Shown in pieces: positions 17,328 through 23,723 of a stretch of 64,000 bases of DNA. The notes beneath the pieces are model-generated. The model saw only the letters and a list, made by a program, of their open reading frames with translations, was not told the origin of the DNA and did not search any database. The translations under genes and the position numbers were made by a program. The stretch's first letter is position 1. Each line of letters begins with the position of its first letter. This stretch comes from Candidatus Thorarchaeota archaeon (lineage in GTDB: Archaea; Asgardarchaeota; Thorarchaeia; Thorarchaeales; Thorarchaeaceae): the NCBI GenBank assembly GCA_020348985.1, contig CP070761.1, positions 2,499,445 through 2,563,444 on the forward strand, given 5' to 3'.

Positions 17328-18755
17328 CTATTCAGTTACAGCATGGGCCTGTAATGCGATTCTTGGCTTGAGTTCACGTATTGGAATTCCAGTCTCCTTT
17401 GCCACTTTCAAGACATCATCGGCCTCCGGCTTTATGGCAACGATACTACCGTCTACTGACCGAGAAACCTTAACCCGAACCATGAACTCCTTGTCGTCTA
17501 TCTCGAGTTTTGTTACAATGGTCTCGCGGGGAGCCTTTAGACGGTTCCATGTTGTGTGACGAATACCAAGCGTTCCCAGATGCTTTATCAGAGTCTCAGC
17601 GATCTGCGCGAGCCCCTCATTCGGAGCGATCACCTTCACGACGTAACAGGGACGATTCTTCTTACCATAGGCAGGTATCATAACGAGGTCGTAGGCGAGA
17701 CCTTCAGCAAGCAGCTCGTCAAAGAGCAGACCCATTATCTCCCCATCCACATCATCTACGTTCGTCTCAATGACTGTTACTTCATCTGTGATGAGTCCTT
17801 CAATCAATTCGGCCGTCTCCTTCTTTCTTGGCTTCTTCTCTTTGCGTTTGGGAGCTTTCTTGGGTTTCTTCTCCTTTGGAGGCTTGGGAGGTGCCTTTGG
17901 CTTCTCTTCTACATCTTCTGGAGCTTCGGATTCCACTTCGAGTATTCTCAATAGGTTTGGAACATCGCCAAGGTCTTGAGTTCCGAACCCTACACCCTGA
18001 GCCTTTATCTTGAAACCGTCTGTCTCTTCAACGAATTCGTCCACCAGGGATACCAGAATGGCGGCCCCAGTAGGGGTTAGGAGTTCCTTTTCAACAGGAC
18101 CATCTTCAAATGGAACATCATGTTCCACAAGTATTTCAGCGACAGCCGGAACTGGAACATCTATTTCTCCATGTTCAGTCTTTACAGTTCCGCCACCTAT
18201 GGCAACGGGAGTTGCCAAGAATCTCACATTCTCAAGATATCCAGATTTCTCAAGCAAGTAGGCGGTCCCGACCACGTCAAGAACAGTGTCAACTGTACCT
18301 AGCTCATGAAGATGCAGTTTTTCTGGAGGTGTATCATGGGCTCTACTCTCAGCTTTGAACAACTGCTGGAGGACTTTGTCAGCGAATTCTTTCGCAGGAT
18401 CAGACAATTCAACTTCTTCGCATACAGCTCCGAGAACCTCGTCCAGTAGTTGAGGAGTGAGGCGGGCTTCTTGATCCAGTGTGACCTCAAGAGCCGGACC
18501 TTTGAGTTTCCCCGATTTCTTCTCCACAACGCTCAGGCGGAGAGTCGGATCATGAATCAGTAGACTTGCAGCCACTGGAACAAGTGCGTCATTATCGCCG
18601 ATTATATCGATTAGAGCAGACAGAAACATGTCTCCTGAAGCACCGGCCCCGGATACATCGATGAGCACTGTCTTTTTGCTCAATTCAACAACTCCAATTT
18701 GAGATGCGCTGTCTGCGTTGCGCACTATTCTTGACCTTTTCTTTCTTTCTGGCAT
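17328..18755 (-). CDS. larC: LarC, nickel-pincer cofactor nickel-insertion protein
   Basis: The 475 residues begin the family core with LIDVSGAGASGDMFLSALID, followed by LHLHELGTVDTVLDVVG and LLTPTGAAIL, all typical of LarC (formerly DUF111). A Lys/Pro-rich linker (about residues 285-325) joins the N-terminal part to the C-terminal CTP-dependent part starting near VIETNVDD. In Lactobacillus the two halves are joined by a ribosomal frameshift; here they are one continuous frame. LarC inserts nickel into the pincer nucleotide used by lactate racemase-like enzymes. No larA, larB or larE is in the window. It is the last gene of the minus-strand cofE-mtr run. Confidence 0.93.
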   Translation of the reverse strand: MPERKKRSRIVRNADSASQIGVVELSKKTVLIDVSGAGASGDMFLSALIDIIGDNDALVPVAASLLIHDPTLRLSVVEKKSGKLKGPALEVTLDQEARLTPQLLDEVLGAVCEEVELSDPAKEFADKVLQQLFKAESRAHDTPPEKLHLHELGTVDTVLDVVGTAYLLEKSGYLENVRFLATPVAIGGGTVKTEHGEIDVPVPAVAEILVEHDVPFEDGPVEKELLTPTGAAILVSLVDEFVEETDGFKIKAQGVGFGTQDLGDVPNLLRILEVESEAPEDVEEKPKAPPKPPKEKKPKKAPKRKEKKPRKKETAELIEGLITDEVTVIETNVDDVDGEIMGLLFDELLAEGLAYDLVMIPAYGKKNRPCYVVKVIAPNEGLAQIAETLIKHLGTLGIRHTTWNRLKAPRETIVTKLEIDDKEFMVRVKVSRSVDGSIVAIKPEADDVLKVAKETGIPIRELKPRIALQAHAVTE

Positions 18756-18826: not shown

Positions 18827-19600
18827 CTATTTCCCCTTGCGCCATTGCTCAAAGATTGCCATGTACATGCATTCTGAGGGCGGAATCCACATTTCCGAAG
18901 AGCTAAAAGATTGATTCACAAACTCTACTGGAGCCCCTCGTATAAGTGCCGCAGGCACTGATTCATCTGTTTCGCCCATGACCGCCGTGCATGCTGAAGC
19001 CAAGTTGTCAGCTACCGCCCTGCGAGTTATTCGCATGATATTGCCAAATAAGTCCTCACGACCCCTATCGTCCATTACAGGACGAAAACCTGCGACGGCC
19101 AGTGCCATCCCAACGGTCCCCATACGAAGTGGTTGGGTTCGACTGTCTATTATGATGACGCCTATGTCTAATTCGGTTCTCTTCTTCACTTCATCCCTAA
19201 TTCTTTCTGCACTGGCACGAGGATCTTTAGGTAGGAGTGAAGCATGTCCCATCGGGACGTTTGATTTGTCGACACCCGCATTGGCCATCAGAGTATTCTC
19301 CTTGATCGTGAGTAGAACATGCGGAATTCCTCCGAGAATCTCATCAGCCTCTCTGAGAATGAGCTCGGCCACTTCTGGAATCAATGTGTATTGCTCCGAT
19401 AGCCTTCTCGCTTCCTCAGACACTTCCACGTTGGATAGCTTCATCACTCTGCCCTCGGTTGTGCCAAGGGGAGTCTCAGCAATTCCGAGAATATCGTGGT
19501 TGGCAAGTTCGTATTCACACTTCTCAAGACCATCAAGGAGTACGCTCAAAATGTCGTCGGTCTCTGTGATGACACGTGTCTTGATTGGGAGTACTAGCAA
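18827..19600 (-). CDS. cofE: Coenzyme F420-0:L-glutamate ligase
   Basis: The 257 residues match CofE throughout: ILGIAETPLGTTEGR, the conserved centre MANAGVDKSNVP followed by LLPKDPRASAERIRDE, and DIGVIIIDSRTQPLRMG near 150. CofE adds glutamate residues to F420-0 using GTP, making the deazaflavin hydride carrier used by methylene-H4MPT dehydrogenase and reductase. It lies between the marker-14-like gene and larC in the same direction. The presence of F420 biosynthesis fits a methanopterin-linked C1 pathway served by the nearby mtr genes. Confidence 0.95.
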   Translation of the reverse strand: MLVLPIKTRVITETDDILSVLLDGLEKCEYELANHDILGIAETPLGTTEGRVMKLSNVEVSEEARRLSEQYTLIPEVAELILREADEILGGIPHVLLTIKENTLMANAGVDKSNVPMGHASLLPKDPRASAERIRDEVKKRTELDIGVIIIDSRTQPLRMGTVGMALAVAGFRPVMDDRGREDLFGNIMRITRRAVADNLASACTAVMGETDESVPAALIRGAPVEFVNQSFSSSEMWIPPSECMYMAIFEQWRKGK

Positions 19601-19695: not shown

Positions 19696-21114
19696 TCATC
19701 TCTTGCTTTGATGGTGTCTCTGCCGCTTCATCCGCGCCCCCATTATGCAACCGTCTCCTTTTCGACCGCCCATTGGATTGGTTCTGGTTCCCATAGAGTT
19801 CATACACCTGCCTGCAACTGCAGCTCCAAGAGCAAGACCATCTTCAACGAAAATCAGGTCACGATTACCCATCCAATGTTTGCCATCCTTAGACTCCAGT
19901 GTTGATGCGATGATAGAAGGCTTCTCTCCTGTAGTTATTCCCCGACCGGTAAGACCCAAGGATGTATTGGGATGCAGCAGTCCTTCCTCTTCTGCCAAGG
20001 ACACTATCCTCTGAGCTGTACGCGCTTGCACCTCGTCAATCAATCTCAGAAGATACGATATACCGTTCGCCTCCACAATGCCGCGTCCAAGAATCTCCAG
20101 GTCAGCAAGTCTAGAACCGTCAGTCCCTGCATCAACACCTATAAGAACCACACCAGATTCGTCAGCAGCTTCGGCGTTAACGGGTACTGTGCCAAATCGC
20201 TTGGTCCCCGGTGTCACCCGCTCAACACGGATGTACTCGTGGACAGCATCAACCTCATCTTGAGTTGCTTCAGCTTTGGACCTCTTGTTTTCTGACAAAT
20301 CCATCACGCAGCCCAAAGGGTTCTCTGGCAACAACGCCCCCCGAGCCAGTGCGTCAGGAATAGCTCCAGCAAGTCCTGCAAAGGACCCTATTGTCTTTGC
20401 GTAGGGATGTCCGTCGTCTGTAACTCTTCCAGCCAACGTTGTACCGAAATCAAGGGTCATCACTGGATTTCGGAAGTCGATGTCTGTGCTCTTGGCGGCA
20501 CCCTTTATGCCTGCAGTCACCAATTCCCCTTCCATCTCATTGGCAACAATCTCGGTGTTAGCAGGAGGAAGAGAACTGGCAATAGCTCCATCGAAGTGCA
20601 CCCTCTGTAGCCAGGTGTAGTCTCTCAGGCTTGGAGGTAGATTGTTGGGCGCAAGTGAGGCTGTCATCTTCTTCGGAGGAACTCCAACAAGCAAGCAACC
20701 ATCCGCTAGTGCCTTGACAATTGTACCGATTTCCTCTGGTCGTTCGAAGCCGGCGGTTATTCCGGTTGATCGAACCACAAAGTGAAGATCGCCCTCGATA
20801 GACATCCTAGCACGACTGACTACACTCGAGATTAGAGTAGCAACGAGTTCGGCAACCGATTCCTGGGAAAGCTCTATGCCAGTCATCGTCCTTCCGAAGA
20901 CGGATTCCGTCGGGACTACGGAGCGTATACCTCTTGTGAGCACAATCTCCTTCTCAATGACGAAGATTTCTGCCGTCTTAAGATTCGTAGATGTGAGTAT
21001 ACATTTGGCGGTCGTGTTTCCAAGCTCAACTGAGGCAACTGTGTAGAACGCTCCCAATCTAAGCGATGATACTCCTATCCGCCGGGGATTGATGAAAATG
21101 GGGCGCGTTGACAT
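19696..21114 (-). CDS. Methanogenesis marker protein 14-like, ASKHA-type motifs
   Basis: The product has about 472 residues from the ATG at 21114, which leaves a 16-base gap after mtrH; the longer frame to 21177 would overlap mtrH. It resembles methanogenesis marker 14 of methanogens. VELGNTTAKC near residue 30 and TLDFGTTLAGRV near 235 look like the two phosphate motifs of actin/hexokinase/Hsp70-type ATPases, and VLIGVDAGTDGS adds a third glycine-rich segment. Such folds drive reductive reactivation of corrinoid proteins in RACo/RamA-like systems, so a similar service for the adjacent MtrA-like protein is a reasonable inference, not a demonstrated role. Confidence 0.78.
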   Translation of the reverse strand: MSTRPIFINPRRIGVSSLRLGAFYTVASVELGNTTAKCILTSTNLKTAEIFVIEKEIVLTRGIRSVVPTESVFGRTMTGIELSQESVAELVATLISSVVSRARMSIEGDLHFVVRSTGITAGFERPEEIGTIVKALADGCLLVGVPPKKMTASLAPNNLPPSLRDYTWLQRVHFDGAIASSLPPANTEIVANEMEGELVTAGIKGAAKSTDIDFRNPVMTLDFGTTLAGRVTDDGHPYAKTIGSFAGLAGAIPDALARGALLPENPLGCVMDLSENKRSKAEATQDEVDAVHEYIRVERVTPGTKRFGTVPVNAEAADESGVVLIGVDAGTDGSRLADLEILGRGIVEANGISYLLRLIDEVQARTAQRIVSLAEEEGLLHPNTSLGLTGRGITTGEKPSIIASTLESKDGKHWMGNRDLIFVEDGLALGAAVAGRCMNSMGTRTNPMGGRKGDGCIMGARMKRQRHHQSKR

Positions 21115-21130
21115 GACAAGACTCACCCAC

Positions 21131-22066
21131 CTAGAGAAGCTTGTTGATAGGATGTCCTTCGATTGGTTCGATTCCAAACTCCGTCCTCAATGACTCTGCG
21201 GCAAATATATCCGCCATCGCAACTACCGGAAAGACACGTTCAGCATTTTCTATGGGCCCATAGAGGATGAAGTCCGCCCCCAATGTGTGTGTGATGAGAT
21301 TGGACGCTATGTCACAGGCTTCAAAGACCTCTGGACTCTCCTTCCTGATCTTGCGAAGCCAGCTCCATGAGGACGGTGCATTGTGTATTCCAGCTCCAAC
21401 TGGATGACCATAGAGCGTCTTGGCAACGAATGTGAACGATGCAGAAGAGCCAGCTCCTGCCCCCATTGCCATAGTTGCTGTGTCAATTAGTGGCTTCTTG
21501 ATCCCTAAGTCTTCAGCTAGAGCGAGCAGACCTCTTTCAAGCGTGATTGTTCCGTCATCTAGGACACCTCTCTTGCCGGCAATAGACGGATCCTGTGGAT
21601 TAAAGGCCAGAATGATGGCGCATTCGTGCTGCATGTTCCAAAGTGCCTCTCTCTCCTCTTTTGTGGCTGAGACGTTGAGCGAGTTGTAGATGGCCCTGTC
21701 AAGGAACCCAACCTCCTCCGCGTAATGAAGACCTGACACTCTTACCAATGGATCTGCTGAATCAATCAAGAATGGAGCATCAGACAGATCAGCAGTAAAA
21801 CCAAGGAACTTCAGCATGGCCTCTGAGGTCTCTGCAAAAACCTGAACCATTCTTGGATTGCCTGTCGTGTCTGACAGTTCCTCTTGTGAGTTTATCAATG
21901 ACTCTGCTGCTTTCTTGTCGAAGTCCCCGCGAACAGGATCCTTCACTATTTTGTGTCCACCATAGAATATGGTTCCCGCCAGAACAGTCGGGTGTTCACC
22001 TGGATGGCCACCCACTCTTGTTCCAGCTATGTCGTACACGAACTGCTCTTTCTCGAAGAGAAACAT
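21131..22066 (-). CDS. mtrH: MtrH-like methyltetrahydropterin:corrinoid methyltransferase (copy 2)
   Basis: This 311-residue TIM-barrel protein of the MtrH family contains AGTRVGGHPGEHPTVLAGTI, KAAESLINSQEELSD and AGIHNAPSSWSW, as in the H subunit that moves a methyl group between methyl-tetrahydromethanopterin and the MtrA corrinoid. It begins 5 bases after mtrA ends. It differs clearly from the copy upstream of mtrA (roughly one third identical by eye), so the two probably bind different methyl carriers or form a heteromeric complex. There is no membrane segment. Confidence 0.9.
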   Translation of the reverse strand: MFLFEKEQFVYDIAGTRVGGHPGEHPTVLAGTIFYGGHKIVKDPVRGDFDKKAAESLINSQEELSDTTGNPRMVQVFAETSEAMLKFLGFTADLSDAPFLIDSADPLVRVSGLHYAEEVGFLDRAIYNSLNVSATKEEREALWNMQHECAIILAFNPQDPSIAGKRGVLDDGTITLERGLLALAEDLGIKKPLIDTATMAMGAGAGSSASFTFVAKTLYGHPVGAGIHNAPSSWSWLRKIRKESPEVFEACDIASNLITHTLGADFILYGPIENAERVFPVVAMADIFAAESLRTEFGIEPIEGHPINKLL

Positions 22067-22071
22067 ATCAT

Positions 22072-22761
22072 CTACAACTCCTTGCCTATCGTTATGGTCC
22101 CTGTTTCGGTGTCTGTCACTTTTGCCCCAATGTTAGATGGATGAGTAGCTATCAGTGCAATTGATTCCTGTTTTGATATCAGTGACGTCGAGGAGGTCAT
22201 TGACATACCATACTCAGGAAGCAGCATGATTTCCGCACTTACAACTACACCCTTTGGCTTGGCCGACTTGGCCTTGAATTCGATCCATATTGGATCATCT
22301 GGAAATGGTCCGGGATTCCTGACAACTAGCTCTGCAGCTGCAGCCGATATAGCATCCGCATCAAGAACTCTGATGAAGTCAATAAGCTCAATCTGGACTC
22401 GGAACCGCTCTACAACCTCCACGGGGATGTTCTCAATGTATGGTATTGCACCAGGGGCATCAATGATTCTTCGCGTTTCTTCATCAATCCCATTCTCGTG
22501 TAAGCACTTGAAGCTCTTGCCCGTCAGATGTCCAGGAACTTCGGGTCCGGCAAGTATTAGGAATCTGATGTTGGGATTGGCCACAATGTTGGCAACTACT
22601 CGTTCAATCCCTATGTTCTCCGTCTTGCAGGAGCCGTTCAGTGCGAAGTCGCCTTTGATCGAGATCTTCTTTCCTAGAGTACAAATCGCTACGCATGATG
22701 AGTAGGAACCAACCTCGAAGTCACCTGACATGGGAGGCCACTCTTGTTCCTCATCAGACAT
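22072..22761 (-). CDS. mtrA: Soluble MtrA-like corrinoid protein
   Basis: This 229-residue protein shares the MtrA corrinoid-binding domain: a WPP...GDF start, CKTENIGIERVVANI at 45-59, NPNIRFLILAGPEVPGHLTG at 62-81 and APGAIPYIENIP. His78 in PGHLTG aligns with His84 of Methanothermobacter MtrA, the lower cobalt ligand. The C-terminal transmembrane helix of methanogen MtrA is missing; instead residues 160-229 form a beta-rich extension. The protein should be cytosolic and carry methyl groups between the two flanking MtrH proteins. No genes for MtrB, C, D, E, F or G are nearby, so sodium pumping is not expected. Confidence 0.92.
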   Translation of the reverse strand: MSDEEQEWPPMSGDFEVGSYSSCVAICTLGKKISIKGDFALNGSCKTENIGIERVVANIVANPNIRFLILAGPEVPGHLTGKSFKCLHENGIDEETRRIIDAPGAIPYIENIPVEVVERFRVQIELIDFIRVLDADAISAAAAELVVRNPGPFPDDPIWIEFKAKSAKPKGVVVSAEIMLLPEYGMSMTSSTSLISKQESIALIATHPSNIGAKVTDTETGTITIGKEL

Positions 22762-22771
22762 CTTTTTGTCA

Positions 22772-23695
22772 TCACCCGCTGGTCAAAGGCTCGAAAAGGT
22801 CTCGTTCGATGCCCATTGCTCGGCTTGACTCGGCCGCAGCAGAAGAGATTGCATTTCCTATCAGCGCCGCGGCTCCAAATGCTTCCTTTGAGCGAATCAT
22901 TGAGCCATACATTATACAATCTGCTGCGAAAACCTGGGCAGTCGATATTGCTGCAATTAGTGTCGCAAGATGCATTGGCTCATTGTCAAGGTCTGAATCC
23001 TTGATGAACTTCCAGGCAGAGGGAGCGTTATGTGGAGCCAGACTAGTTGGATAGCCAAGCTGAGACTTCACTGCCAAGAGCGTGCGATATTCAACTCCGT
23101 GGCCCGAGCCAACAGGCAGTGCACCGGGATCCACCAGGAACTCTGTGATGCCCATGTCCTGTGCTGAGGTGACCATCTCCCTGATCGTCTCCATTCTTTC
23201 TGGGAGCGATGTTGCTCTGGGGGTCCATCCTAGAACGATGCCCTTGCCTAGTGAACTCGCTGTCAAGGCCGCCTTTTCTTCATCAGTCATCGAGAGATTG
23301 ATGCTATTGTACAATGCTCTGTTGTTAAGACCCGACTCATCACAGAACTCAATTCCTCTAATACGGGATTCTGGCTTGACCGACTCAAAGATGATCGGAC
23401 CTTCAAATTGATCTGCAAGCCATGAGAGATGTGTCTCCATTGCTTTTGGCGTTCGACCAAAAGCCTGAATCATCAAAGGATGACCAGTCCTTTCTGACAT
23501 AAGAGTCCCAGTCTCTATCCATTCTTTGGCGAGCTTCTTGTCAAAGATACCTTCACGAGTGTTCTCCATTATTGGCTGGCCTGCAAAAAACATACCGCCT
23601 ATCAACACCGTGGGGTTCTCACCAGGCTGCCCTCCAGCGACCACTCCTCCAAAGTCGAAAGTTTGCTGCTCCTGCTTGAAGACGTACATCATCAC
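22772..23695 (-). CDS. mtrH: MtrH-like methyltransferase (copy 1)
   Basis: This 307-residue MtrH-family TIM barrel has GGVVAGGQPGENPTVLIGGMFF, VDPGALPVGSGHG and SLAPHNAPSAWK. It lies 10 bases upstream of mtrA and is the first of the H-A-H trio. Three Met codons follow one another at the start; any could be used. Relative to copy 2 the pterin-pocket regions differ, for example PGALPVGSG against TATMAMGAG. One copy may use a methanopterin-type carrier and the other a different methyl compound (inference). The gene follows hflX by 28 bases. Confidence 0.9.
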   Translation of the reverse strand: MMMYVFKQEQQTFDFGGVVAGGQPGENPTVLIGGMFFAGQPIMENTREGIFDKKLAKEWIETGTLMSERTGHPLMIQAFGRTPKAMETHLSWLADQFEGPIIFESVKPESRIRGIEFCDESGLNNRALYNSINLSMTDEEKAALTASSLGKGIVLGWTPRATSLPERMETIREMVTSAQDMGITEFLVDPGALPVGSGHGVEYRTLLAVKSQLGYPTSLAPHNAPSAWKFIKDSDLDNEPMHLATLIAAISTAQVFAADCIMYGSMIRSKEAFGAAALIGNAISSAAAESSRAMGIERDLFEPLTSG

Positions 23696-23723
23696 TTACT
23701 CCTTCAACGAACCAAACTGAGTC

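Follow-up and report, generated by a model that had tools for sequence, protein, structure and literature searches.

A candidate cytosolic corrinoid methyl shuttle encoded by mtrH-mtrA-mtrH genes in Thorarchaeia

What might MtrA and MtrH do in an archaeon without the rest of the methanogen methyltransferase Mtr? The presence of these two proteins in Thorarchaeia without the remaining subunits has already been published: Adam et al. 2022 (PMC9635834) describe canonical MtrAH without other subunits and tie marker m26 to Mtr. We analysed such a locus in a window of 64,000 nucleotides (the whole stretch of DNA studied here) from a single-contig 3.16 Mb thorarchaeial (Asgard) chromosome. An earlier note on this DNA had described an MtrA-like protein flanked by two MtrH proteins and read it as a cytosolic shuttle. 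The observation is confirmed, and the interpretation is supported in part.

The three genes lie head to tail on the minus strand as intact, separate open reading frames, and no single chain combining MtrA and MtrH is encoded at the locus. The first, mtrH2 (22772..23695; Pfam MtrH, 3e-66), encodes a divergent MtrH paralogue, with candidate starts at GTG 23695 or ATG 23692/23689 and GAAGGAG upstream. It is followed after 10 bases by mtrA (22072..22761; Pfam MtrA, 5e-58), encoding a soluble corrinoid protein, and after 5 further bases by mtrH1 (21131..22066; Pfam MtrH, 2e-115), encoding a canonical methyl-H4MPT:corrinoid methyltransferase. These short gaps are as first described. The closest relatives of the MtrA protein come from "Candidatus Thorarchaeota". 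No RNA families were found by an Rfam scan of the window.

MtrA has the corrinoid domain and the cobalt-ligand histidine of the Mtr complex. In alignments with solved MtrA structures the ligand, His78, corresponds to His84 of M. marburgensis, and it is invariant in the alignment of 36 thorarchaeial and 45 methanogen proteins. By hydropathy and alignment there is no membrane helix, the C-terminus included, so the histidine and the missing anchor reported earlier both hold. The best 19-residue hydropathy mean is at most 1.59 in the 36 thorarchaeial proteins; it is at least 1.85 in 44 of the 45 methanogen ones and 1.37 in the remaining one. The NCBIfam score is 189.8 bits, under the equivalog cut-off of 249.2. 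The helix is replaced by a C-terminal beta-type extension of about 55 residues (approximately 174-229), which is conserved in Thorarchaeia with P182, E183 and G221 invariant; a related extension occurs in a distant Asgard genome, G215. The core of the AlphaFold model matches MtrA structures (5l8x/5laa) at 1.1-1.8 A. The extension is modelled with low confidence, and a fold search with it gave no match, only the MtrA core being matched. Using the contacts of MtrA to MtrH and MtrC in the Mtr model (PMC10998594), we found that the MtrH-contacting segment AIPYIEN is conserved and that MtrC-contact residues are altered: methanogen S/H is replaced by K/K at window positions 31/32, and K by P at 76.

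The two MtrH proteins are indeed clearly different, with 31.7% identity. MtrH1 passes the NCBIfam mtrH equivalog (398.7 bits, cut-off 271.4), MtrH2 fails it (219 bits), and both fail the MtgA equivalog (209.5 and 157.9 bits, cut-off 550). We compared the pterin-binding residues and the putative H4MPT-tail patch R239/K242/K243 (PMC12774963), in M. mazei numbering. MtrH1 retains D103, N129, D196, N230, H229 and the tail patch, as methanogen MtrH does; by residues and score it is a methyl-H4MPT:corrinoid methyltransferase. MtrH2 differs from canonical MtrH by D103E, T32G, A155G, F156W and P275S, and the resulting E103, G32, G155, W156 and S275 are present in all 39 thorarchaeial members. It lacks the K242/K243 patch. 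On the other hand, N129, D196, N230 and H229 are retained in 100% of the members, that is, three of four pterin contacts and the pocket histidine.

MtrH2 is as conserved as MtrH1 (mean identity 0.667 and 0.659, respectively) and is marked by 24 fixed residue differences, several of them in loops turned towards the corrinoid in the Mtr model (PMC10998594); it is therefore under selection for a distinct function. In the tree the two types form firm separate clades, the MtrH2 clade with support 100. Since G215 has members in both clades, the split predates the class. The grouping of the two clades with each other has AU p 0.32, and an origin of MtrH2 within Asgard archaea or earlier is compatible with this. 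G215 also has the mtrH2-mtrA-mtrH1 order and the MtrA tail, with mmp14 and cofE together on a second contig (the two contigs are C86 and C91).

In a survey of 47 thorarchaeial genomes, this one included, MtrA was found in 40 and MtrH in 44. Profile searches found MtrE (with positive controls) and McrA in none of the 47. The absence of Mtr membrane subunits and mcr, noted earlier for the window, thus extends genome-wide for MtrE and mcrA, the two searched at that scale; none of the operon genes examined encodes MtrB, C, D, F or G. The earlier note had named such genes elsewhere in the genome, or identical pterin pockets, as evidence against its reading; MtrE and McrA are missing and the pockets differ.

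The same genome encodes two further MtrH proteins outside the module. At G000:C1:1568043-1572739 (G000 being the genome of the window) there is a cluster of an MtmB-like protein, a corrinoid protein, an MtrH-family protein and RACo with a 2Fe-2S domain. The MtmB-like protein (PF05369, 459 aa) is full length with no in-frame stop, and thus apparently lacks pyrrolysine. A further MtrH-family protein is encoded at G000:C1:471415-473012, convergent with the gene of a B12-binding corrinoid protein.

The gene order around the module is conserved: about 35 thorarchaeial loci have tgt(-), hflX, mtrH2, mtrA, mtrH1, mmp14, cofE, larC, polB(-). The relatives have metF (PF02219) between hflX and mtrH2, often with metV (PF12225) ahead of it. 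Wherever a relative's locus extends at least 700 bases beyond mtrH2 on the upstream side, metF precedes it (37 of 37), the median gap being 7 bases. Of the 47 genomes, 39 have exactly one methylenetetrahydrofolate reductase (MTHFR), whose gene adjoins mtrH2 whenever the contig reaches far enough. The class-wide unit is metF-mtrH2-mtrA-mtrH1-mmp14, often with metV, and is followed by cofE and larC. The "three-protein system" proposed at first is too small, as mmp14 and, ancestrally, metVF belong to the unit too; that note had covered neither the downstream mmp14, nor the class-wide operon, nor metVF ahead of it in relatives.

In the window neither metF nor metV is present. The hflX stop codon lies 28 bases before the earliest mtrH2 start, and the junction (23696..23723, minus strand) contains no N; the window has no metF or metV remnant. 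No MTHFR was found genome-wide; metVF has been lost. Mer is at full strength here (452 bits; G000:C1:820943-821977). Within the genus, three species can be compared: Mer alone is found in the present one, metVF without a Mer over the cut-off in G006, and Mer together with metF in G007. Several thorarchaeial genomes have MetF and no Mer over the cut-off. Mer and MetVF as strict alternatives were rejected, since many genomes carry both, and with these and only one clear metVF loss the pattern does not lend itself to statistics. Separately, an apparent loss of the whole module in G034 (single contig C1) was rejected as evidence because a scaffold gap of 100 N falls exactly at the expected module site; this single contig is a gapped scaffold.

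Directly downstream of mtrH1 is mmp14 (methanogenesis marker 14, DUF2114; 19696..21114, minus strand; TIGR03285, 563.7 bits), encoding an ASKHA-fold ATPase-like protein. The frame is open from 21177; ATG 21114 is the likelier start, 16 bases from mtrH1. The predicted structure matches ASKHA-type ATPase folds, RACo (3zyy) being one of the weaker matches; the profile comparison with RACo is weak (probability 13%), and Pfam gave no match to a 2Fe-2S domain. A survey of 214 Asgard genomes found Mmp14 in Thorarchaeia and G215 only. There it tracks stand-alone canonical MtrA and is missing from genomes with only MtrAH fusions or divergent MtrA. Mmp14 is a likely re-activator of MtrA. The next genes encode a CofE-like F420 gamma-glutamyl ligase (18827..19600, minus strand; PF01996, 1e-68; TIGR01916 barely over the cut-off) and a LarC-like nickel insertion protein (17328..18755, minus strand; PF01969, 2e-97). 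Both keep their position after mmp14 in the Thorarchaeia examined and are identified by synteny as well; their part in the methyl-transfer unit is uncertain.

Gene content, synteny, residue patterns and the lack of MtrE and McrA are observed. Our preferred explanation, held tentatively and at somewhat less than an even chance, is that these genes specify a corrinoid methyl shuttle of the cytosol, in which methyl-H4MPT is the substrate of MtrH1 and a second methyl-pterin that of MtrH2, with Mmp14 as a helper. Through MtrH1, a methyl group would pass between methyl-H4MPT and the cobalt that MtrA carries; through MtrH2, it would pass between MtrA and a second carrier, most likely a folate-type pterin, presumably formed by the MetVF reductase whose genes adjoin mtrH2 in other Thorarchaeia. 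Mmp14 would probably help to restore Co(I) on MtrA. Two C1 pools would thereby be joined with no Na+ being pumped. The shuttle could fill the H4MPT pool in species where MetVF is present and Mer absent; the present species has Mer but lacks MetVF, and here the flow would be reversed.

A folate-type pterin for MtrH2 is suggested by the adjacency of metF, the retained pterin triad and the lost tail patch. However, MtrH-family proteins of corrinoid/RACo clusters in the same genomes likewise lack K242/K243, and thus loss of the patch is no proof of a folate substrate. Thorarchaeota possess both H4MPT and folate pathways (PMC6737245), and thyA is present in 31 of 38 of their genomes (PMC9931769). 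Two further points count against the shuttle. The present genome retains mtrH2 despite the loss of metVF. Besides, according to an unproven proposal made for ANME-1, archaeal-type MetF substitutes for Mer and uses H4MPT (PMC9012536); if so, no second pool is needed. A more specific version, a membrane-free pterin-to-pterin exchanger in which MtrH1 is specific for methyl-H4MPT and MtrH2 for methyl-H4folate around one MtrA, while the C1 pathway runs on Mer or MetVF as swappable parts, is possible but doubtful.

The strongest alternative, itself unlikely, takes MetVF to be just such a Mer substitute on H4MPT. An MtrH1-MtrH2 heterodimer would replace the MtrH homodimer; MtrH1 alone would be catalytic, passing the methyl group to an unspecified acceptor, and MtrH2 would serve docking or regulation. 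It might hold soluble MtrA, perhaps through the conserved beta-type tail of the latter, comparable to the docking of MtrB to the MtrH dimer in methanogens. There, MtrB docks to the MtrH homodimer by way of Asp5 and Arg211 (PMC12774963), and the two thorarchaeial proteins split these positions in a charge-complementary manner: position 5 is an acid or Gln in MtrH1, which has A/S instead of Arg211, whereas MtrH2 has Lys5 (92%) and retains Arg211 (100%). As residue patterns go, this would fit a mixed dimer without demonstrating one. The ANME-1 proposal and the Thorarchaeia that have MetF and no Mer over the cut-off point the same way. However, the loss of MtrB by itself could free positions 5 and 211, and a purely structural half has no need of N129, D196, N230 and H229, which every MtrH2 retains.

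The suggestion that MtrH2 handles a methylated compound other than a pterin (methylamine- or methoxy-like), feeding H4MPT through MtrA and MtrH1, is improbable. It agrees with a pocket unlike that of MtrH1, and the earlier note had proposed a "different methylated compound" for the second MtrH. That part of its reading fares less well than the soluble H-A-H module: since MtrH2 keeps three of four pterin contacts and the pocket histidine and adjoins metF in the class, a second pterin is the likelier partner. Moreover, the operon encodes no MttB/MtmB-type demethylase, and the methylamine-type system elsewhere in the genome (MtmB-like protein, corrinoid protein, MtrH, RACo) is available for other methylated compounds.

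Equally improbable is an anabolic module in which MtrA hands its methyl group to biosynthesis, for example of methionine, as proposed for methanogen MesA, which is predicted to draw it from MtrA (PMC7857596). The methionine synthase families PF01717 (MetE/Mes) and PF02574 (MetH/BHMT) were each found in 0/47 thorarchaeial genomes, which implies either methionine auxotrophy or an unrecognised enzyme; the latter would suit this explanation. However, the operon contains no candidate acceptor enzyme, and the missing families make synthesis of the Mes type unlikely; the MesA-like route from MtrA to methionine was rejected on these grounds.

That the module is a decaying remnant of the Mtr complex with no present function is very improbable: although thorarchaeial MtrA and MtrH are called remnants of ancestral Mtr in PMC9635834, metVF is lost here and mtrH2 dN between the present genome and its genus is 0.27-0.28, against 0.19 between two relatives, the reading frames are intact, dN is low with synonymous sites so saturated in the genus that dN/dS ratios are unusable, active-site residues are fixed in about 40 loci and the operon order is fixed class-wide.

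The shuttle would give a concrete candidate role to "leftover" Mtr subunits in non-methanogenic archaea, a matter left open by published reconstructions. The three species of one genus (Mer only, MetVF only, both), all of which retain the module, allow a clean comparison. If the two MtrH proteins do hold different pterins, a specific enzyme joins the archaeal and folate C1 pools of Asgard archaea.

The canonical MtrAH of Adam et al. 2022 are almost certainly the MtrA and MtrH1 genes described here; the accessible part of that paper makes no mention of a paired MtrH2, metVF linkage, the MtrA tail or alternation of Mer and MetVF. We did not find the two-MtrH architecture or these other features in the open-licence papers searched. 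MtrA, MtrH and MtrAH fusions are known from other Asgard archaea (Valentin-Alvarado et al. 2024, PMC11291895). The fusions of Atabeyarchaeia and Freyarchaeia resemble the present system in having MtrA-like and MtrH-like domains together, with no MtrE and no Mcr. However, they are single chains of about 510-590 aa with one MtrH, distant in the tree from both MtrH1 and MtrH2, and the genomes encoding them lack mmp14, with the exception of G215. The latter has MtrA matches of the size of MtrAH fusions and appears to carry both types.

The methanogen complex MtrABCDEFGH shares with the thorarchaeial module the corrinoid domain of MtrA with its histidine ligand and the TIM barrel of MtrH1 with all pterin residues, and mmp14 is found in methanogens too. 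The module differs in having no MtrE, no anchor on MtrA, changed MtrC contacts, a second MtrH clade and no McrA. MtgA-type systems (MttB-corrinoid-MtgA-RACo) likewise combine a soluble MtrH-family methyltransferase with a corrinoid protein. However, they use a corrinoid protein with a B12-binding domain and a demethylase, whereas here the carrier is MtrA, flanked by two MtrH, with no demethylase. In acetogens, MetVF and AcsE form a parallel to the thorarchaeial unit, as a methylene-pterin reductase supplies a methyl-pterin:corrinoid methyltransferase; the thorarchaeial unit uses MtrH-family methyltransferases instead, and MtrA takes the place of the corrinoid iron-sulfur protein.
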